A DNA stretch of 64,000 bases, taken from Streptococcus ruminicola (GTDB lineage Bacteria; Bacillota; Bacilli; Lactobacillales; Streptococcaceae). Position numbers and translations under genes: made by a program. Where the stretch lies: contig NZ_CP046920.1 of NCBI RefSeq assembly GCF_011387195.1, positions 22,460 through 86,459 of the forward strand, read 5' to 3'. Numbering within the stretch: position 1 is the stretch's first letter; every line of letters begins with the position of its first letter. Below, piece by piece: positions 4,040 through 63,437 of this stretch. The notes under the pieces were generated by a model. That model saw only the letters and a program-made list of their open reading frames with translations, had not been told where the DNA came from and made no database searches.

Positions 4040-5557
4040 ATGAATAATAGAAATGAAGAAGTAGTAAATAAAATAGAAGAAGCAGTAGCTAAAAGCGTGC
4101 AAGAAGATATCAAATGGGTTGTTGAATTTAACGAAAATGGTCATGGAGATATCGATATTCCAGATTTTTCAGGTCAAGAAGTGACACAAGAACTCTTAGA
4201 TACAATCAAAGAGTATGACGAGCGTTTGCATTTATCATCACTTCGAGGCTACTTTAAATTCTATTTTGATAAAATGCAAGGAGAAGAAGTAGTCGATCAT
4301 GAACGTCTTGACGTCGGTGACGGTTTAGAAGCTAACCAACGTGTTTACTCTAAGATTGAAAAAGATTTTTCTAAAAATAAAAGTGCAAACAATCACCAAA
4401 TAATTGATGAAATGATTTCGGATATTACCAATGGTGAAATTTATTATTTGTGGCATGATGATCAACTTGAAAATTTAGGAGCTTCTGATGAAGCGTTATT
4501 GAATTTTTCTTTCCATCTACAAGGTTTAGATAATATTCAATATAATCAAAATGGTATTCATCTTTACGTTGCTGATTCTGCAAACGATGACGTTATAGGT
4601 TTCCTTTCAATCGATGGAAGTCCTATTGATTATGATACTATCGAAGATTACCTAGCAAAAAAAGATTTGTCATTTGATGAACAAGTGTCTCTGCTTAGAA
4701 ATCTAAAAGTAGCAGTTGATGAGACTTGGGATAAAGTTACAAATTACTATAACGAACAATTTAATTCAATTGTTGCGCAGTATGGCTTATCTGAAGAAAA
4801 AAGTAATACTACAAAAGAAACTAGTAAAGTAACGGCTAAAGACTTTACAAAGGTTCTGGATGCTGTTTACAATGTTGGGGCTCAAATCGGTAAAATGAAT
4901 CGTGATAATATCCCTGAGGAGTTTTATCCAGCTTGGGACAAATATTATGAGTATGCTGATACTTATAATAACGATTTTGATACCATTGTTAGGGCTGCAA
5001 GAGCAGACGATCTTTTTGATGAAGAATCTGATTTTTATAAAGAAGTATGGCTTCCAAAAATTCAGGAAAAACAACAAAAAGAAGTAGTAACTACATCAGA
5101 TGAAAGCGAAATTACTGAATTTGATAAATTAGTAGCTTTTGATAAATTAACAGCAGAAGTAACAAGTGCAGGATATACTCCTGAATTAGAACGTATTCAC
5201 AATTGGTTATGTGAGCAATCAGACGATTTAGAGTTGATTGCTGGAATTTTAAAGAGTGAACGTACACTGAATGGTGCACTTTCTTACTGTACTAAAAAAG
5301 TTGCTGAAAACTATCTAAAAAGTAATAAGAATCAAGCTGTTATAGTAGATGATGCAGTTGTTTATAATTGGATAAGAGAATACTTCATTAGTGATGATGA
5401 AGTAATTCAAGAGATTCAAGCTCCAAAAGCTGCAGTACAAGTACAGGTAACACCTTCAGTACAAAAAAATGTTTCTGAGAAAGTTCCTGTAAAAGATAAA
5501 TCAGTTGTTGATGGACAATTAGATTTATTTGCTGACTTTGATGGGGGTGAAGAATAA
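4040..5557 (+). CDS. Acidic protein with C-terminal PcfK/AcrIIA9-like domain
   Basis: A 505-aa, strongly acidic protein. Residues about 1-330 are not recognised. Residues about 350-460 (TLNGALSYCTKKVAENYLKS, then AVIVDDAVVYNWIREYF) resemble the PcfK family. PcfK belongs with the Cas9 inhibitor AcrIIA9, which shares the 'AVI-D-VVY-W' pattern. It overlaps the next gene, pcfJ, at ATGA, the same pcfK-pcfJ order as on enterococcal pheromone plasmids such as pCF10. Inferred roles: transfer accessory function and possibly inhibition of a host type II-A CRISPR system. The very long N-terminal extension is unusual. Confidence 0.6.
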   Translation: MNNRNEEVVNKIEEAVAKSVQEDIKWVVEFNENGHGDIDIPDFSGQEVTQELLDTIKEYDERLHLSSLRGYFKFYFDKMQGEEVVDHERLDVGDGLEANQRVYSKIEKDFSKNKSANNHQIIDEMISDITNGEIYYLWHDDQLENLGASDEALLNFSFHLQGLDNIQYNQNGIHLYVADSANDDVIGFLSIDGSPIDYDTIEDYLAKKDLSFDEQVSLLRNLKVAVDETWDKVTNYYNEQFNSIVAQYGLSEEKSNTTKETSKVTAKDFTKVLDAVYNVGAQIGKMNRDNIPEEFYPAWDKYYEYADTYNNDFDTIVRAARADDLFDEESDFYKEVWLPKIQEKQQKEVVTTSDESEITEFDKLVAFDKLTAEVTSAGYTPELERIHNWLCEQSDDLELIAGILKSERTLNGALSYCTKKVAENYLKSNKNQAVIVDDAVVYNWIREYFISDDEVIQEIQAPKAAVQVQVTPSVQKNVSEKVPVKDKSVVDGQLDLFADFDGGEE

Positions 5558-24440: not shown

Positions 24441-24472
24441 AAATTTGTAAATATTCTTCTAAATTTTCACAT

Positions 24473-24624
24473 AAAAAAAGACACCCTAAGGTGTTTTCTA
24501 AACTGGACTAGTGCCAAAACTCGGAAGCTAGTCTTGACAGGGTGGATCCCTTCGGTATGTCCGCAGATGTCCTCAGGAAGAGCCACAATTCTTGTATTGC
24601 TACAACGGGTCCCAAATAACCCGT
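24473..24624 (-). ncRNA. Guide-RNA locus 1: scaffold without spacer
   Basis: A copy of the conserved scaffold RNA (24521 to about 24624) with the same palindromic promoter (-10 at 24631-24636) and the same terminator as the arrays. The scaffold passes straight into the truncated last repeat (GTTTTGGCACTAGTC...). There is no full repeat and no spacer. One G is missing at the junction (CCGAG-TTTTGG instead of CCGAG-GTTTTGG). It could supply scaffold in trans or be an emptied array. Flank 24650-24693 matches the flank of locus 4. Confidence 0.7.
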
Positions 24625-29044: not shown

Positions 29045-30325
29045 CTACTCTGTAATTTCCAACAATTCTTTTTCTTTATATCCGAGTTTTATTTTCAAAA
29101 TGCTTAAAAATTCGTACGGAGCATTAAACATAATTTCAAACCCCTGCTGTCTACGCTTATCAAACCAATTCATTTCTTCAGGATTATAATCTTTTCGTTT
29201 TTGTAAAGATTTAAAATCTTTTTTGTATATAACAAATTCATCACCCATTAATAAAAGTTCATTAGCAATTTGACCGAATCGATTTTTACGACTTTTAGTA
29301 ATTTTATGCCATAAATATCTCTTTTTATCTCTTAGTTTTTGGTAATTATTACTGTAATTCCAAGTCAATCTACCTTCTTTAATAGTACCGTTGTCGTTGT
29401 AGTTTTGTGGATTACTTAAACGTCGAGAACGCTCAATCTTACGATCTAAGTCGGCTAATTTTTCAGAGTAACCAAAATCGTTAGATAGGTCAAATAATCT
29501 TACAGTGTCATTTTTGGCATTCACTGCTTTAATAGCTAATTTCTTGACATCTAAAAAGATTTTTACCGTTCCTTTGTTTTCTAATTCTTTGTCCACCCCA
29601 TATGGGATTCCCTCAAAAACAAGAAGTAAAGAATATTTATATTTACCATGAACCGCTATACGCTTCAATGCAAATTGAACAAGATCTTGTCTTTCTAAAG
29701 CATAAAGAAAACGTATTTCCATATCTTTTTCAAATTTAAATGGAATAAAAACCTTATTTTTACGTTTTCCAAAATAAACACCAGTGTTGGTAATGTTATT
29801 AAGGCACTTTCTATACCATAGAGTGTTGAAATCAAAATATCTAGGAGATGGTAAAAAATTCTTTGATTCTGCTTGTTTACGACGTTTTAGATAAGCTTGC
29901 TTAACAGTCATAGCAATATCATTAAATGTAGACCAATGTACTGAATCATTATCTGCAGTAAAGCGTTGATACATATTAGTAGCTTGTCCTAACTGAGTGT
30001 ATTTAACAAACTTTCCACTTCCTAATTGATAAGAATTATTTAATTCAATCCATTCTTTTTTCAAGTCACTACCTAAAGCCTTCTTAGCTTCTTTTAATTC
30101 CTGCTTCTTAGCCTTGTCTTTTTCGTCTTTTAATTGTTTTTCTAACTCACTATATGCCTGTTGTTTCTTAGCTAAGATTTTATACTCTTCAGATTCAGTT
30201 CTTAAATGTTCTTGACGATTGAACCATTTAATAACTTCTTTTTTTAGTCTAAAAGCATTACGAAAACGCTTGTCTAAAAATGCTTCATACCCCTTTGGAT
30301 TTAACTTAACTTCTAATGTATACAT
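29045..30325 (-). CDS. Nuclease-dead TnpB/Cas12-like protein, probable guide-RNA effector
   Basis: A 426-aa protein of TnpB descent. The N-terminal half is basic and helical. The RuvC-I strand is recognisable (KIFLDVKKLAIKAV, Asp about 258). The TnpB bridge region is well kept (LDRKIERSRRLSNPQNYNDN, then WNYSNNYQKLRDKKRYL). The RuvC-II segment reads EFVIYKKDFKSLQKR, where TnpB has VIEDLxxxxLQKR, so the catalytic Glu is Tyr. The protein ends shortly after, without zinc finger or RuvC-III Asp. This is the pattern of nuclease-dead TnpB derivatives (TldR) that repress genes by RNA-guided binding. No tnpA or transposon ends flank it. Start chosen at ATG 30325, 7 bp after AAAGG. I infer it works with the four guide loci. 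Confidence 0.75.
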   Translation of the reverse strand: MYTLEVKLNPKGYEAFLDKRFRNAFRLKKEVIKWFNRQEHLRTESEEYKILAKKQQAYSELEKQLKDEKDKAKKQELKEAKKALGSDLKKEWIELNNSYQLGSGKFVKYTQLGQATNMYQRFTADNDSVHWSTFNDIAMTVKQAYLKRRKQAESKNFLPSPRYFDFNTLWYRKCLNNITNTGVYFGKRKNKVFIPFKFEKDMEIRFLYALERQDLVQFALKRIAVHGKYKYSLLLVFEGIPYGVDKELENKGTVKIFLDVKKLAIKAVNAKNDTVRLFDLSNDFGYSEKLADLDRKIERSRRLSNPQNYNDNGTIKEGRLTWNYSNNYQKLRDKKRYLWHKITKSRKNRFGQIANELLLMGDEFVIYKKDFKSLQKRKDYNPEEMNWFDKRRQQGFEIMFNAPYEFLSILKIKLGYKEKELLEITE

Positions 30326-36484: not shown

Positions 36485-39058
36485 TTACAAAGAACTGTCT
36501 TCCTCTTTTCCAAAACCGCTAAGACGCTTAGCAACTTTAGGACGATTAACTTCGTAATTTTCTTGTGAGATTTTCTCATTTCCTATGTGAGGAGAATTAA
36601 TTCGTTGTTTTGTAACAGTTTTTTGGGGTGTTGATGTAACACTTTTAGTTGAAACTGTCTTACTTGGGGCAACAACTTCTCTTGGTGTTGAAGTAACTCC
36701 TTTAGTTGAAACTGTCTTACTTGGGGCAACAACTTCTCTTGGTGTTGAGGTAACTCCTTTAGTTGAAACTGTCTTACTTGGGGCAACAACTTCTTTTGGT
36801 GTTGAGGTAACTCCTTTAGTTGAAACTGTCTTACTTGGGGCAACAACTTCTCTTGGTGTTGAAGTAACTCCTTTAGTTGAAACTGTCTTACTTGGGGCAA
36901 CAGCTTCTTTTGATGTTGAGGTAACTCCTTTAGTTGAAACTGTCTTACTTGGGGCAACAGCTTCTTTTGATGTTGAGGTAACTCCTTTAGTTGAAACTGT
37001 CTTACTTGGGGCAACAGCTTCTTTTGATGTTGAGGTAACTCCTTTAGTTGAAACATCCTCTGCTAGTTTAGCTGACGATCCACCTGCTAGTTCTTCTGGG
37101 GTTTCCAAATTCACTGAGTTAGTTGGTAAAACACTTGCTAGCTCTTCTGGGGTAATTGATGATTCAGCTATATTTCGAGAAGACGGTGAAGTAAAATTAG
37201 AGTAAGCAGATGCCTTTCCGCTACTATAAGCGTCTTTTAGGGCGTTAACTCCTGCATTACCTTTACTTTGAAATTTAGATGCAGGAATTTGAGCACCGTT
37301 TCTTAGAGTATCTAATGTTCCAAATGTAGCTCCCTTTAATCCTCCGCCACGTTTATTATAGTTATCTCTAAGTGCACTACCACTGCCATAAAGAGCACCC
37401 ATTTCTGCTGCTGTATTTTTTAGAACAGATCCTCCAAAATCTTTTACTCCTTTGGTCCCTCTTTGAGCAGCATTTCTAATATTTCTCATTTCATGTCCAA
37501 TTGAACCACCATGACGATTTCCATTAATATCTTTACGTCCAATAGAAGCTTGTTCAATAGCTCTTCCAGCCATAACTCCTGCTCCAACTGTAGCTGCCGT
37601 TTGAGCTATACCAGCTTTAGCACCCGTTGATACTCCTAACCAATTTTCAATAGCTCTTGAACCTTGAATAGTAGCATAAAACACTGCAATATAAAGAGCA
37701 ATCGTTGCAATAGTATTACCCCAAAAGCCTAAATTTCCAATAAATGAGCCAAAATTATTATTGTGACTACTAAATGCCATCGTTGGAGCTTTACTTATGA
37801 ACCATAGTCCGTATTTAACAATTAAAATATCAAACCAAATACCAGCAATACCAGCGAATATTGTCCGCAAAAGATCTAAGAATTTTGCAGAATTATCTAC
37901 CGATGTATATCCAACGATAGGTGCAACTACAGAGGATAATAGAGTTCGCATTATTGTTTGTAAAACTGTAATTAACAAACCGATTAGCAATAAAATCAAC
38001 ATTGCTTGTTCAACAAATAAGCCAATCCAGTTGACTTTATAACGTAGGTACACTGGTTTTAAAATATTGTAGCCAACAATAGAAGTTACCTTATAACCAG
38101 CAACTTCCACTTCTACGGGTTTTTGTCCACTATCATCCCAATCGTTTTTTCTTAATTCAGAACGGAACAGAGTTGCTAAACAATAATACATACTATTTTC
38201 ATTATCTCCAGTCGGAATCTCAAAAAATAGGAATTTCGATTTATTCTTAGCAGCATCTGCAAAGTGTTCTAATTCTTCTTTATCATTAGGTCCATATGAG
38301 GTTACGAAATTAGTTGACGCTATATTTTTAGACGATAACCTATTAAGACGAACGCCATTAGCTTCCGCTTTACTAGGATTAATATACCCATCATCGCCTC
38401 TTTGACGACCAAGCTTACTAGCGTTAAAACCAACTCTGGCTAACTGCATAATGTCAACAACATTATCTTGAAATGGCTGTGCTGACAGTGTACTGCCTTG
38501 TTTTGTACCACTAGCAACATAGGTTTGTAAATCTTTAGAACTATCTGCAACTACTTCTGAAAAAGAAGTTAATGCAGCTGGTAGAAAAGCAGTTGCTGCA
38601 GTTACTAATATAGCATGATTGAAAAACTCCTTATATTTAAATGGAGTTCCAATAATCCCGATGACAACACGAACAACTATGAAAGCTATAAAAAGCGAAA
38701 TGCCGACAGTACGCAAACCTGAATATATTTGCCCAATAAAATTATCGTTAGAACCCAACAAGCTAAAGAAACCAAAAAGAGCAAATATTTTGTTAAATAT
38801 TGATTCTAAAGCATTAGAAAAACCATAAAACGTTTTAGCAAACCACTCGGGTATTGTTAAAAATGTTGTAAAGAAATGTGGATGCGGGGTCAGGTATTCA
38901 CTCCACTGTTTATAAAAAGTGGATAAAACTTGAGAATCAGTATCATTTATTTTAAAGTTATGATTTAAATCAAAAGCCTGATCTGATAAGTTTTCCCCCA
39001 TCGACTTTATGTTTTTCCAAAAGGTTCCTTCACCATTTAATCTGGTATCAAATGCCAT
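36485..39058 (-). CDS. VirB6/TcpH-like polytopic transfer protein with tandem-repeat tail
   Basis: An 857-aa protein. Several TM helices lie in residues about 75-165 and 345-480 (SLFIAFIVVRVVIGIIGTPF; LILLLIGLLITVLQTIM). A Gly/Ala-rich stretch follows, then a hydrophilic tail with eight copies of a 19-residue unit (VSTKGVTSTSKEAVAPSKT and variants). The membrane part fits the VirB6/TcpH channel component. The repeat tail is cytoplasmic or exposed and variable in length. It is the last gene of the pilin operon. Confidence 0.75.
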   Translation of the reverse strand: MAFDTRLNGEGTFWKNIKSMGENLSDQAFDLNHNFKINDTDSQVLSTFYKQWSEYLTPHPHFFTTFLTIPEWFAKTFYGFSNALESIFNKIFALFGFFSLLGSNDNFIGQIYSGLRTVGISLFIAFIVVRVVIGIIGTPFKYKEFFNHAILVTAATAFLPAALTSFSEVVADSSKDLQTYVASGTKQGSTLSAQPFQDNVVDIMQLARVGFNASKLGRQRGDDGYINPSKAEANGVRLNRLSSKNIASTNFVTSYGPNDKEELEHFADAAKNKSKFLFFEIPTGDNENSMYYCLATLFRSELRKNDWDDSGQKPVEVEVAGYKVTSIVGYNILKPVYLRYKVNWIGLFVEQAMLILLLIGLLITVLQTIMRTLLSSVVAPIVGYTSVDNSAKFLDLLRTIFAGIAGIWFDILIVKYGLWFISKAPTMAFSSHNNNFGSFIGNLGFWGNTIATIALYIAVFYATIQGSRAIENWLGVSTGAKAGIAQTAATVGAGVMAGRAIEQASIGRKDINGNRHGGSIGHEMRNIRNAAQRGTKGVKDFGGSVLKNTAAEMGALYGSGSALRDNYNKRGGGLKGATFGTLDTLRNGAQIPASKFQSKGNAGVNALKDAYSSGKASAYSNFTSPSSRNIAESSITPEELASVLPTNSVNLETPEELAGGSSAKLAEDVSTKGVTSTSKEAVAPSKTVSTKGVTSTSKEAVAPSKTVSTKGVTSTSKEAVAPSKTVSTKGVTSTPREVVAPSKTVSTKGVTSTPKEVVAPSKTVSTKGVTSTPREVVAPSKTVSTKGVTSTPREVVAPSKTVSTKSVTSTPQKTVTKQRINSPHIGNEKISQENYEVNRPKVAKRLSGFGKEEDSSL
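36618..37055. repeat. 57-bp tandem repeats in the VirB6-like gene
   Basis: Eight adjacent 57-bp units (19 codons), from exact copies to units differing in a few bases. Two subtypes (TSKEA and TPREV/TPKEV) are grouped in blocks, suggesting stepwise duplication. Confidence 0.9.
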
Positions 39059-42959: not shown

Positions 42960-42978
42960 ATTTTTCAAAAAAGGGCAT

Positions 42979-43003
42979 AAAAAAAGACACCCTAAGGTGT
43001 TTT
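42979..43003 (-). terminator. Terminator of guide array 2
   Basis: AACACCTTAGGGTGT hairpin and T-run on the minus strand; the same sequence ends all four guide loci. Confidence 0.8.
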
Positions 43004-43357
43004 CTAAACTGGACTAGTGCCAAAACGAACAAGACGATAAAAGATAAGGCAGTGCTCTTTTGGAACCATGTCAAATAGACTAGTGCCAAAACTACCGTTA
43101 ATTGTTCTTTTTTTCTGAACAACTTTTGGAACCATGTCAAATAGACTAGTGCCAAAACCTTCTTGCGCCTTGAGAATTTTATATTGAACTTTTGGAACCA
43201 TGTCAAATAGACTAGTGCCAAAACTTATCGGTTGAAATTCATGATGCACCTTTAACTTTTGGAACCATGTCAAATAGACTAGTGCCAAAACAGCAAACTA
43301 GTAATTTCAGTATGTCGATAACTTTTGGAACCATGTCAAATAGACTAGTGCCAAAAC
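43002..43357 (-). CRISPR. Guide array 2: five repeats, five spacers
   Basis: Transcribed on the minus strand. Five full 36-bp repeats are at 43322-43357, 43256-43291, 43189-43224, 43123-43158 and 43057-43092, plus a truncated repeat at about 43002-43026. In transcript sense the repeat begins GTTTTGGCACTAGTC, has ATTTGACATGG in the middle and ends TTCCAAAAG. Spacers at 43292-43321, 43225-43255, 43159-43188, 43093-43122 and 43027-43056 are 30, 31, 30, 30 and 30 bp, and all differ. The repeat has the length and ends of type II-A repeats, but no cas genes are present. Repeats in this array carry A at position 17; arrays 3 and 4 carry G. Confidence 0.85.
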
Positions 43358-43462
43358 CTCGGAAGCTAGTCTTGACAGGGTGGATCCCTTCGGTATGTCC
43401 GCAGATGTCCTCAGGAAGAGCCACGATTCTTGTATTGCTACAACGGGTCCCAAATAACCCGT
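43358..43462 (-). ncRNA. Scaffold (tracr-like) RNA of guide array 2
   Basis: About 105 nt between the promoter (-10 at 43469-43474) and the first repeat, nearly identical in all four loci. It begins with a GGGTTATTTGGGACCC hairpin and ends with the anti-repeat TGTCAAGACTAG and CTTCCGAG. The anti-repeat pairs with CTAGTC and TTGACA of the adjoining repeat around a 3-nt bulge. The transcript start is estimated from the -10. Confidence 0.75.
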
Positions 43463-52020: not shown

Positions 52021-52028
52021 AAAAATTC

Positions 52029-52122
52029 CTCCTAGCGTTTTACGCTTACTTATTTTTAACATTAAATAATGACTAGACTTCCTCGGCACCTGTCAATTCG
52101 TTCTAGCCACTTGCATAAAAAA
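52029..52122 (-). repeat. Leader duplicated at window start (inverted)
   Basis: Same sequence as 1-94 on the opposite strand (one mismatch). Here it begins at the terminator of the large ncRNA and ends at the ssb SD. It holds TTGACA with CATTAT-like sequence 19 bp further on, a possible weak promoter. Confidence 0.85.
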
Positions 52123-52673: not shown

Positions 52674-54209
52674 TTAGTAATCTTCACTCCACAAATCCAT
52701 TGCATCTAGAAAATCATCTGAAATTTCTAAAGGCTGAGTTTTTGCCTGTTCCTCGTTGTCAATTTGTTGCTGAGTTGTAATACCTGCTTTAATCCAATTA
52801 TCTAAGATACCTTTTACATATGTCCAATTGTCTTTAGTATTAAAAATAGCAATCTTAATTGCGGAACTAATAACATTAACCTCAACTTTTTCAGCATATT
52901 TCTGAATATCTTCCAGAATAAGAAGCGAAACATCTTTTTTTAGCATGTTTTTTAGATTTGAAAACAAAGTTTCATAATCAGAATTTGACGCTATCAACTG
53001 CTTTACAATTACAGCTCCCTTATTATATCTTTGTGTTTCATACTCTTTTAAATCATCTAAAGTAACTACACCAGCATCAATTAGATTTTGAATTACTTTA
53101 ACAGTCCATCCAAATCCACGGTTGTTTTTATATCCAGTTCTGATAATTATTTCCTTGATAACATCAGAATTTATTAAGTTTAACCACTCTTTTATTTTTT
53201 TCCGATTTGGATTATTATCTACCTGCCTATCCGTTCCAAAAACGTCATGAAATACTTCTAAAATTTCTTGGTACTCTTCGATATTGGTATCGTCAGAAAC
53301 TTTTGCCATCGGTAAAAGTTTCAAAATCAGATTATTTTTATTGTGGCTGATAACCTCATTCAAATCATTACTGAAACGCGAAAAAGTAAAATAATATTTA
53401 TAAGTACTTCGTCCTCTTTTTTCGACCTTCATATCTAGGTTAGGAATAATAGCGTTACCTTCTTGATCACTTAACTTTTTTAACTCCTCAAAAGCTTCTC
53501 CGATTTTTTTCCTCTTATTCTTTTTGAGCGATGGTGTATTTAACTTCATAATATCATTTTCAAATTCATCAGCTAATTTATAGCAGCTACCATAATTTCG
53601 ATATTCTGAAAGGAATCTATAAAGACGTTTACTATATTTTGATTTTAAAAGATTGTGTATCTCACGACCAAATTTTAAATATTTAATTTGGCTCCAGTTG
53701 TCCTGATTAAATAGCTCATAAACTCTTTTTTCTGGATGTACAATAGTGTTTCCGTCTGAATCTACTTCAATAAACTCTTCTTGATATACTTCATCTGAAA
53801 GTACAACGGTCAATTTTTGTTCTCTATGACTAACTTTATATTTTTTGAATAAAGGATATACCTCGTACTCATCGACTTCGCCCGCATTATCCAGCGATTT
53901 TAACTTTTTATAACTTACTGTTTGAAGCTTATTTTGAAGAGCTTCTATTATTTTATTAAATCTAGCTCCTGTTTGAGCAAAGGTGTTATTATTGCTATCT
54001 ACACTAACTAAACCAGCCATGTGGGCTATTTCAGAATAGGTAAATTCAATATCACCAGTAGAATATCTATCTGTCAATTCTCCTAAAATTGAAAAAGTTA
54101 TATTTTCTTCAACTTTGTTCAAATCACCCAAATCAAATAAAGCAGGAAATTCCCTGCTATATTGTATCTTGTTTCTGAACTTAGATTCTTGTTCAGGATA
54201 CGAAACCAT
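52674..54209 (-). CDS. rep: Plasmid replication initiator (Rep_3-like, two winged helices)
   Basis: A 511-aa protein. The N-terminal half looks like an initiator with winged helices (SREFPALFDLGDLNKVEENI, FTYSEIAHMAGLV, KYKVSHREQKLTVVLSDEVY, YSKRLYRFLSEYRNYGSCYK). The C-terminal half is helical, as in Streptococcus and Lactobacillus theta-type initiators. It lies next to an iteron array, as expected. ATG at 54209 follows AAGAGGTGTCTGTG; the ATG 24 bp upstream has no SD. The acidic tail (DDFLDAMDLWSEDY) is a possible protein-contact site. Confidence 0.75.
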   Translation of the reverse strand: MVSYPEQESKFRNKIQYSREFPALFDLGDLNKVEENITFSILGELTDRYSTGDIEFTYSEIAHMAGLVSVDSNNNTFAQTGARFNKIIEALQNKLQTVSYKKLKSLDNAGEVDEYEVYPLFKKYKVSHREQKLTVVLSDEVYQEEFIEVDSDGNTIVHPEKRVYELFNQDNWSQIKYLKFGREIHNLLKSKYSKRLYRFLSEYRNYGSCYKLADEFENDIMKLNTPSLKKNKRKKIGEAFEELKKLSDQEGNAIIPNLDMKVEKRGRSTYKYYFTFSRFSNDLNEVISHNKNNLILKLLPMAKVSDDTNIEEYQEILEVFHDVFGTDRQVDNNPNRKKIKEWLNLINSDVIKEIIIRTGYKNNRGFGWTVKVIQNLIDAGVVTLDDLKEYETQRYNKGAVIVKQLIASNSDYETLFSNLKNMLKKDVSLLILEDIQKYAEKVEVNVISSAIKIAIFNTKDNWTYVKGILDNWIKAGITTQQQIDNEEQAKTQPLEISDDFLDAMDLWSEDY

Positions 54210-54240
54210 CACAGACACCTCTTCTTGAACCATAGTATGT

Positions 54241-54770
54241 AAGCACCAAAATGTTTGGTGAAACTACCATAATAATATTTTTTTTACACAAAAGCAATAA
54301 AATGTTTGGTAAAAACTCCTATCATAGATTTTTTAACCATGTCAACCAACAAAATGTTTGGTTATATGAGTAAATTACTTTACTTACGTTCTATTTTACC
54401 ATAATACAACCTTATTAACCAAACATTTTGTTGACTTCATCATAAAAAACAGCTTTTTCACCAAAAAATATGTTGCATTACCAAAAATTACGTTGACATT
54501 ACCAAGAAATATGTTGCTATTACCAAAAACTACGTTGACATTACCAAGAAATATGTTGCTATTACCAAAAACTGCGTTGACATTACCAAGAAATATGTTG
54601 CTATTACCAAAAATTACGTTGACATTACCAAACATTTTGGTGCAATCGTAGCTGATAAAGCCTTTAATACCAAGGGATTTCAGCTTCTAATAACTAATAT
54701 AACTAATAATAACTAATAATAACTAATAAATAACTAATATAATAACTATATAATAACTATTATAACGATA
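54241..54770. other. oriV: Replication origin: iterons plus AT-rich repeats
   Basis: ACCAAACATTTTG-type motifs are at 54244-54258, about 54297-54310, 54348-54360, 54417-54431 and 54628-54642. Between 54455 and 54630 there are about eight 21-bp direct repeats of two alternating kinds (ATTACCAAAAACTACGTTGAC and ATTACCAAGAAATATGTTGCT, some with small changes). Next comes an AT-rich block of ATAACTAAT repeats (54690-54765), a likely melting site. The Asn-Phe-Gly-rich open frame across the iterons (54396-54635) is a product of the repeats, not a gene. Confidence 0.8.
54269..54327 (-). promoter_or_regulatory. Regulon-box promoter of rep
   Basis: Minus strand: AAAAAATCTATGATAG, 21 bp, TTGCTT, 17 bp, TATTAT. 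A copy of the iteron core (CAAACATTTT) lies between box and -35, and others flank the promoter, so the initiator may autoregulate here. Confidence 0.65.
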
Positions 54771-57058: not shown

Positions 57059-57080
57059 ACTATAGATTCTATAGTATAAT
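57059..57080 (+). promoter_or_regulatory. Palindromic promoter of guide array 3
   Basis: ACTATAGATTCTATAGT (57059-57075) overlaps TATAAT (57075-57080). Same element as at the other guide loci. No good -35 and no regulon box. Confidence 0.6.
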
Positions 57081-57086
57081 ATTGAT

Positions 57087-57191
57087 ATGGGTTATTTGGG
57101 ACCCGTTGTAGCAATACAAGAATCGTGGCTCTTCCTGAGGACATCTGCGGACATACCGAAGGGATCCACCCTGTCAAGACTAGCTTCCGAG
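57087..57191 (+). ncRNA. Scaffold (tracr-like) RNA of guide array 3
   Basis: About 105 nt from the predicted start to the first repeat, nearly the same as in loci 1, 2 and 4. The end carries the anti-repeat TGTCAAGACTAG (57174-57185 region) and CTTCCGAG. With the adjoining repeat it can fold as one hairpin: TGTCAA pairs TTGACA, GACTAG pairs CTAGTC, and GG/CC pairs extend both ends. Confidence 0.75.
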
Positions 57192-57347
57192 GTTTTGGCA
57201 CTAGTCTGTTTGACATGGTTCCAAAAGTAAAAATAATTTACGGGGGGTGTCAAAAGAGTTTTGGCACTAGTCTGTTTGACATGGTTCCAAAAGTCTTAAA
57301 AACAGAACTGTCAATTAAAAAATGTTTTGGCACTAGCCTAGTTTAGA
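57192..57347 (+). CRISPR. Guide array 3: two repeats, two spacers
   Basis: Repeats at 57192-57227 and 57258-57293 are identical 36-mers. Spacers at 57228-57257 and 57294-57323 are both exactly 30 bp. A truncated, altered repeat begins at 57324 (GTTTTGGCACTAGCC) and runs into the terminator (hairpin ACACC / GGTGT, T-run to 57372). This is the + strand copy, in opposite orientation to the other three loci. Confidence 0.85.
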
Positions 57348-57391
57348 AAACACCTTAGGGTGTCTTTTTTTTATGCCCTTTTTTGAAAAAT

Positions 57392-63207: not shown

Positions 63208-63218
63208 CTTTAAAGATA

Positions 63219-63332
63219 TAAAAAAGACACCCTAAGGTGTTTTCTAAACTGGACTAGTGCCAAAACCAAGCTTTTCTATACAATTTTCTGCTATGACTTT
63301 TGGAACCATGTCAAACAGACTAGTGCCAAAAC
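63219..63332 (-). CRISPR. Guide array 4: one repeat, one spacer
   Basis: Minus-strand unit: repeat 63297-63332, spacer 63267-63296 (30 bp), truncated repeat to about 63242, and the common terminator (63219-63240). Repeat version as in array 3 (G at position 17). Confidence 0.8.
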
Positions 63333-63437
63333 CTCGGAAGCTAGTCTTGACAGGGTGGATCCCTTCGGTATGTCCGCAGATGTCCTCAGGAAGAGCCACG
63401 ATTCTTGTATTGCTACAACGGGTCCCAAATAACCCGT
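63333..63437 (-). ncRNA. Scaffold (tracr-like) RNA of guide array 4
   Basis: Nearly identical to the other scaffold copies, with one change in the first hairpin region (GGTACGGGTT instead of GATACGGGTT). Promoter: TATAAT at 63444-63449 with the palindrome just upstream. Flank to 63506 matches the flank of locus 1 and includes a Chi heptamer. Confidence 0.75.

Follow-up and report, generated by a model that had tools for sequence, protein, structure and literature searches.

A streptococcal plasmid with scaffold-led repeat-spacer arrays and a probable nuclease-dead effector of the TnpB lineage

The plasmid to which the DNA analysed here belongs probably carries a small type V-like CRISPR system, in which a dead TnpB-derived protein would bind rival elements rather than cut them. 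The window (the whole stretch of 64,000 nucleotides) corresponds to C2:22460-86459 of an 86,459-bp plasmid contig, which is 99.85–100% identical to the Streptococcus equinus plasmid p1_CNU_G6 over three long alignments. The computational basis of this reading comprises the arrays, covariation in their RNA, the lineage and lost residues of the candidate effector, its co-occurrence with the arrays, the protospacers and the turnover of spacers, each supported at the level of sequence; RNA binding, RNA processing and silencing without cleavage by the effector are what we infer from them.

Scaffold-repeat loci and their predicted RNA

Six scaffold-repeat loci were found on the plasmid (the first-pass annotation had counted four copies), of which A, C, D and E lie in the window, with 2, 1, 5 and 0 spacers, and B and F lie outside it, with 4 and 1. 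A and B end in the same spacer.

57089-57374, + strand: locus A, whole; scaffold, 2 repeats, 2 spacers, truncated third repeat and terminator
57075-57080, + strand: TATAAT, -10-like box of locus A without a consensus -35 (by eye)
57089-57191, + strand: locus A scaffold, 103 nt; 5' hairpin GGGTT[ATTTGG]GACCC, middle helices, anti-repeat, leader end CTTCCGAG
57192-57227, + strand: locus A repeat 1, 36 bp (sequence)
57228-57257, + strand: spacer A1, 30 bp; 30/30 match in the RepA_N gene of the G002 conjugative element, 5' flank CCG
57258-57293, + strand: locus A repeat 2, same as repeat 1 (sequence)
57294-57323, + strand: spacer A2, 30 bp; same as the last spacer of locus B; no target found
57324-57374, + strand: terminal truncated repeat of locus A fused to a terminator; stem 57350-57363 and T-run
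63216-63435, - strand: locus C, whole, 1 spacer (sequence comparison)
63333-63435, - strand: locus C scaffold; scaffold and repeat sequence same as locus A
63216-63332, - strand: locus C repeat, spacer C1, terminal repeat and terminator; C1 30/30 in IMG/VR contig L145, flank TTA
42976-43460, - strand: locus D, whole, 5 spacers (sequence comparison)
43358-43460, - strand: locus D scaffold (sequence alignment)
42976-43357, - strand: locus D array with 5 repeats and 5 spacers, closed by terminal repeat and terminator; D2 and D4 have matches in the conjugative element
24470-24622, - strand: locus E, whole, spacer-less; scaffold and truncated repeat
24521-24622, - strand: locus E scaffold; possible stand-alone tracrRNA-like RNA or emptied array
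24470-24520, - strand: locus E truncated repeat and terminator (sequence)
C2:390-804: locus B, 4 spacers, outside the window
C2:2490-2702: locus F, 1 spacer, outside the window

Arrays with a scaffold are confirmed at 57089-57374, where the first-pass annotation had noticed them, and its description of locus A holds for the two identical 36-bp repeats and two 30-bp spacers, for the terminal truncated repeat joined to a terminator, and for the scaffold preceding the first repeat, which had been put at about 105 nt. The promoter claimed there has the TATAAT box in its favour, whereas a consensus scan lists no promoter pair at that place. The accompanying interpretation, that the arrays carry their own scaffold RNA, is partly supported: scaffold and repeat fall within one predicted transcript, with the scaffold 5' of the repeat and the guide 3', in keeping with the TnpB/type V logic that had been invoked.

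Relatives of the scaffold-arrays exist in three further streptococcal groups, and 36-bp repeats with unique spacers of 30 bp (rarely 29 or 31) characterize the arrays of S. equinus, G059, G225 and S. salivarius; the S. salivarius arrays have a terminator-like end as well. DNA searches with the scaffold itself returned p1_CNU_G6 only from the plasmid collection, nothing from phages or viral contigs, and the own genome only among 284 Streptococcus genomes, and an Rfam scan of the window gave no match. At G059:C2:123934 and 140458 (in L078 and L079) there are repeat-like units without the usual leader end, possibly array remnants.

The evidence for RNA structure is comparative, since single-sequence folding energy was no better than that of shuffles (z about -1). 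Fifteen scaffold plus first-repeat sequences from four diverged groups were aligned, with manual trimming at the 5' hairpin (left out were eqC, the same as eqA, and eqE, with no full repeat). RNAalifold, to which the helix was not supplied, paired columns 9-13 (the 5' hairpin loop) with 156-160 (the repeat end) in 15/15 sequences, and three of the five pairs covary (UUUGG/CCAAA, UUCAG/CUGAA, UUUAG/CUAAA, UUUGU/ACAAA), which favours the reading as a structured RNA. By this comparison the best conserved predicted pairing is that between the 5' hairpin loop and the 3' end of the repeat, correcting the earlier emphasis on the anti-repeat. The anti-repeat TGTCAAGACTAG can nevertheless pair with CTAGTCT..TGACA of the repeat, as had been claimed, and locus F presents a compensatory change there (AACTAG/CTAGTT); its helix is the weaker one, with 88.9% of cells paired.

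For a named structure consisting of the loop/repeat-end helix, the 5' hairpin and the six-pair anti-repeat helix, 95.1% of the cells were paired, against at most 46.4% when it was slid. None of 500 shuffles reached its pairing, its count of double-change cells or its covariation score, while the number of double-change pairs was matched by 6/500 and further pair types by 500/500, all of these being counts in which related sequences can beat shuffles without any structure and for a structure named after the alignment had been viewed. Of 17 loci, 8 (two identical ones included) have a minimum-energy fold that joins the scaffold's 5' end to the repeat's 3' end. When repeats were swapped between groups, the S. 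equinus and G059 scaffolds gave the better loop-end duplex with the repeat of their own group; the S. salivarius scaffold did better with the S. equinus repeat (-10.7) than with its own (-6.2), G225 slightly likewise, and the anti-repeat duplex was not group-specific. A pseudoknot adjoining the guide is usual in the guide RNAs of TnpB and Cas12.

A candidate effector of the TnpB lineage

29045-30325, - strand: probable effector gene, 426 aa; counterpart WP_157328623.1, "hypothetical protein", in p1_CNU_G6

This gene, absent from the first-pass annotation, was spotted through TnpB-like stretches on reading the plasmid proteins. A protein search (7998 candidates scored) gave 98 matches, the plasmid's own protein included. 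Fifty-four of them (P0002-P0055) are 45–60% identical, 309–482 aa long and without Pfam domains; the remainder are mostly IS605-type TnpB-like proteins about 500 aa long, some of which carry the name transposase. When 48 family members and 36 TnpB-like proteins were compared as profiles, the result was probability 100 and E 7e-45 over 399 columns.

The catalytic positions in the alignment, placed from the motifs of one TnpB, separate the two sets: the TnpB-like proteins have the RuvC-I D in 36/36, the RuvC-II E in 36/36 and the RuvC-III D in 34/36, whereas in the family both the RuvC-I D and the RuvC-II E are found in 0/48 and the RuvC-III region is absent from 48/48 (a tally that omits P0048-P0050, P0052-P0055, P0057, P0059 and P0094-P0098). 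P0001 has F in the aligned RuvC-I column, with an aspartate two residues later there and in some relatives, so the RuvC-I loss depends on the alignment; the other two losses do not. The PF07282 profile (TnpB zinc ribbon) was not found in the own genome, because the effector is without the C-terminal part of TnpB. Pfam, NCBIfam and PADLOC gave the effector no firm name (PADLOC Cas12f at E 0.0047), PF01385 appeared in 5/33 family members at E up to 1 (best 1.3e-4), and a PDB profile search with the family returned nothing credible. Judged by its sequence, the protein is a candidate single effector of the TnpB/Cas12 lineage and, as 0/48 keep the first two RuvC residues and the third region is missing, at most an inactivated type V variant.

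The closest full-length TnpB-like relative, P0056 (500 aa, 35% identity), retains the first D as well as the E and has R at the third RuvC position; it is a possible intermediate between TnpB and the dead family, as far as its residues go. In addition, L066:16300-17500, examined by eye in the DNA, seems to hold an IS605-type TnpB with CxxC pairs behind the dead TnpB of G059, in opposite orientation. Nine of 395 genomes of the order, besides the own one, gave matches covering roughly half the profile (E 3e-31 or weaker) in frames of 215–530 aa, which we took as ordinary TnpB. The effector family was found at one locus in the genome contig collection and not in the viral contigs.

Counting from carriers of the protein, the effector occurs in 4 of the 284 Streptococcus genomes scored, all four with scaffold-arrays on the same contig, and from this co-occurrence we infer that it is the partner of these arrays. 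Genome G000 has six scaffold-array loci and the 213-kb contig of G059 has seven found, scattered in both. In S. equinus and G059 the effector gene lies kilobases away from the nearest array; in four records the scaffold starts 60–80 bp past the stop codon of the effector gene, and repeats and 30-bp spacers come after it.

Adjacent records: S. salivarius plasmids NZ_CP015284.1 (= G182), NZ_CP018188.1 (inspected at 1-50000 and 85373-175000) and NZ_MN480762.1; Streptococcus sp. WB01_FAA12 (G225)

Spacer targets and turnover

Compared with 284 Streptococcus genomes, array D had two spacers matching one region of genome G002. This region was found with array D alone, and the matches of A1 and B2 emerged afterwards, when all 12 spacers of the plasmid were compared with it, giving four spacers of three arrays (A1 30/30, B2 30/30, D4 28/30, D2 28/31). 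Spacer D1', at the leader end of array D in p1_CNU_G6 and missing here, also matches the region (30/30), and the five protospacers, three of them perfect, lie within one 5.4-kb stretch. Judged by its genes (relaxase, T4SS coupling protein, RepA_N, LPXTG adhesin), the region belongs to an integrative conjugative element. The RepA_N gene contains two of the protospacers, A1 and D1', and D2 follows shortly downstream of this gene; the D4 protospacer is in a 108-aa ORF, and the adhesin gene contains that of B2. At a limit of 4 mismatches over the 80 kb, 4 of the 12 real spacers matched, against 0/480 shuffled and 0/12 reversed ones.

The 5' flank of these protospacers is CCG at A1 and CCA at the other four, i.e. 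CCR in 5/5; CC at -3,-2 was shared by none of 200,000 random quintuples, and 93 of 200,000 had some dinucleotide in common at one position of the 8-nt flank. No common 3' flank was apparent by eye. Spacer C1 has its 30/30 match in L145, a 12-kb virus-like contig with integrase, primase and repressor families, and since its flank is TTA, CCR rests on five sites of one element. Protospacers are thus available for 6 of the 13 distinct S. equinus spacers, with CCR flanking five of the six.

The sets searched, which for S. equinus covered array D against 284 genomes, B against 88, A against the own genome and parts of four spacers against viral contigs, yielded no secure protospacer for the other seven S. 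equinus spacers or for any spacer of G059, G225 and S. salivarius. Spacers gave no convincing target among plasmids, single spacers (one against plasmids, three against phages) no secure match, and exact scans of viral contigs with parts of three other spacers none; array stretches against phages gave two weak places for G059 and none for S. equinus. We set aside a G059 spacer match to Streptococcus phage helicase genes (Javan220, 25/28; 47 phage records, E up to 1), which we rate as weak since a conserved helicase motif is encoded there, and 26/30 matches of B2 in G093 and G225, which have no CC flank.

In array D the spacer order is D1-D2-D3-D4-D5 here, against D1'-D3-D5 in p1_CNU_G6, so its leader-end spacers differ between near-identical plasmids, and D4 differs internally. 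The leader end is the probable site of entry for new spacers. Perhaps, and as a lead only, acquisition is borrowed from the host type II-A Cas1-Cas2, to which several sequence resemblances point. The plasmid repeats are identical at 21–25 of 36 positions to the CR3-like type II-A repeat of G139 (0–1 of 20,000 shuffles as good) and at 17–20 of 36 to the type II-A repeat of the own chromosome (10–132 of 20,000). The leader junction GAG|GTTT, present in 14 of 17 loci (exceptions eqE, eqF and s1), is also that of both type II-A arrays examined, and the host chromosome encodes Cas1, Cas2 and Cas9. That type II-A Cas1-Cas2 recognises the boundary between leader and repeat is stated in PMC6546361. 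Against borrowed acquisition stands the side of the flanking motif, 5' here and 3' (NGG) in the case expected for type II-A spacers.

Proposed mechanism and alternatives

We propose that a TnpB-derived protein without a RuvC active site would bind RNAs from the small arrays. The array leader would be the scaffold of the guide RNA, 5' of the repeat, with the guide 3', and the leader-proximal spacer would hence leave the promoter already joined to its scaffold. Once loaded, the protein would bind guide-matching DNA beside the 5' motif CCR in rival mobile elements and, with no cleavage, prevent these elements from replicating or expressing their genes, a binding-type immune or competition system being suggested because the nuclease appears gone. 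Spacers would be added at the leader end, perhaps by the host type II-A Cas1-Cas2. That later spacers use the scaffold in trans, as the first-pass annotation had it, is plausible given the spacer-less locus E and three well-matched non-first spacers. A more specific version is tentative, and we would put it somewhat below an even chance: an undescribed type V-like variant found on conjugative plasmids and built from a nuclease-dead TnpB, whose leader is the scaffold, in which each new leader-end spacer would become a natural single guide, acquisition would be borrowed by mimicking type II-A repeat ends and junction, and multiplication of the locus (to six copies in S. equinus and at least the seven found in G059) would keep several of the newest spacers in cis.

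The same effector might instead work with a dual RNA, the scaffold acting in trans on all repeats in the manner of a tracrRNA, RNase III separating the parts and the joint transcript being just a convenient promoter arrangement. Locus E, a scaffold without a spacer, would suit this, as would B2, D2 and D4, three of the six matched spacers and none of them leader-proximal; cutting of a TldR guide into a dual guide by RNase III is reported in PMC13418256. On the other side, though not strongly, stand the full repeat directly 3' of the scaffold in 16 of the 17 loci laid out and the shortness of the arrays (0–6 spacers) together with multiplication of the locus in two plasmids, and we regard the dual RNA as a serious contender that is nonetheless rather unlikely.

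It is very improbable that the arrays serve the host Cas9, as extra type II-A arrays or as decoys against the host CRISPR. The resemblance to the CR3-like repeat and the GAG|GTTT leader end would fit such a use, and so would the Cas9, Cas1 and Cas2 of the host chromosome and the AcrIIA9-family protein encoded by the plasmid. Host Cas9 was rejected as user of the arrays, however, in that it is present but its own array carries another repeat (the one with 17–20/36 identity), and the shared protospacer flank is 5', not 3'. The geometry of a Cas9 tracrRNA, with the scaffold 3', is likewise the reverse of that seen here: in place of a layout with scaffold 3' and spacer 5' of the repeat and a 3' PAM, we found the scaffold 5' and CCR 5' in 5/6. 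The co-occurring TnpB-lineage gene, adjacent in four records, also speaks against it. Nor do we think it at all likely that the protein is a regulator of the TldR type, with guides that control host or plasmid genes instead of fighting mobile elements. TldR is alike in its TnpB lineage and lost RuvC residues and in the order of its guide RNA (scaffold 5', guide 3'), and the first spacer is kept with few changes in three S. salivarius plasmids. Yet this spacer, at no more than 2 mismatches over 24 nt, has a single other close site in the 284 Streptococcus genomes (22/30 at full length), and in the plasmid collection its full matches are its own arrays, with partial ones in enterobacterial plasmids only. 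Moreover, the S. equinus protospacers found belong to a conjugative element and a virus-like contig, there is spacer turnover, and arrays A, D and B have no self-target in their own chromosome. TldRs repress genes, and in PMC13418256 their guides regulate flagellin genes; here there are instead arrays of many 30-bp spacers with turnover, some of them matching mobile elements.

The favoured reading, binding of rival elements by a dead TnpB-derived protein, may be set beside known systems. With TnpB/omegaRNA of IS200/IS605 the plasmid system shares sequence homology, an RNA locus that in four records directly follows the gene, and the omegaRNA order of scaffold then guide; it differs in the loss of the catalytic residues and in a repeat-spacer array replacing the guide, and no tnpA was seen beside the effector gene in the annotations read. 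Streptococcal type II-A arrays are alike in 36-bp repeat, 30-bp spacer and GAG|GTTT junction, whereas here the leader is a predicted structured scaffold covarying with the repeat, the flanking motif is 5', and the plasmid's annotated genes include no cas1, cas2 or cas9. The tracr-L of S. pyogenes Cas9 is also a natural single guide, scaffold and guide in one molecule, but it is Cas9-based, with the guide 5', the scaffold 3' and no array.

RNA-guided binding without cleavage as immunity, proposed here from sequence, is described for type V-M (Cas12m) and for inactivated V-C, predicted V-O, V-P and Cas12b3 in PMC12669027, with V-M and V-C as reported cases of inactive type V effectors that block (same source; Cas12m abstracts) and Cas12b3 likewise on a conjugative plasmid with mini arrays. 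In contrast to the inactivated type V systems, the scaffold here is fused in cis to the array and the effector of about 426 aa is without the TnpB C-terminal part; no named Cas12 family has a firm sequence link to it. PMC12669027 puts the number of inferred TnpB-to-CRISPR events at about 50. In the literature we recognised no paper on a scaffold-leader array with a dead TnpB in streptococci; an earlier listing of the clade is possible. If true, the proposal would provide a direct intermediate between single-guide TnpB/TldR and those CRISPR systems that use arrays and tracrRNA, and would show how a scaffold before the array could precede a split tracrRNA. It would also mean a non-cutting weapon in the competition between plasmids and integrative conjugative elements, an array living off the acquisition machinery of another system, and a compact natural single-guide DNA-binding protein.

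Several other features of the plasmid deserve mention. Tandem 21-bp units (ATTACCAAAAACTACGTTGAC type) at 54435-54686, just upstream of a DnaD-domain gene (52674-54233, - strand), are iteron-like and possibly mark the plasmid origin. The AcrIIA9-family gene at 4040-5557 (C2:26499-28016) lies beside LPD1, PcfJ and SNF2 genes; two S. salivarius plasmids with a related effector have a gene of this family as well. A 99-nt inverted repeat (1-99 and 52024-52122, 98% complementary) stands at the 5' ends of two ORFs, ssb and the one preceding the LPD1 gene, with the common N-terminal reading MPRKSSHYLMLKISKRKTLG. Finally, 57-bp tandem repeats at 36557-37111 lie inside the conjugation membrane protein gene 36485-39058.
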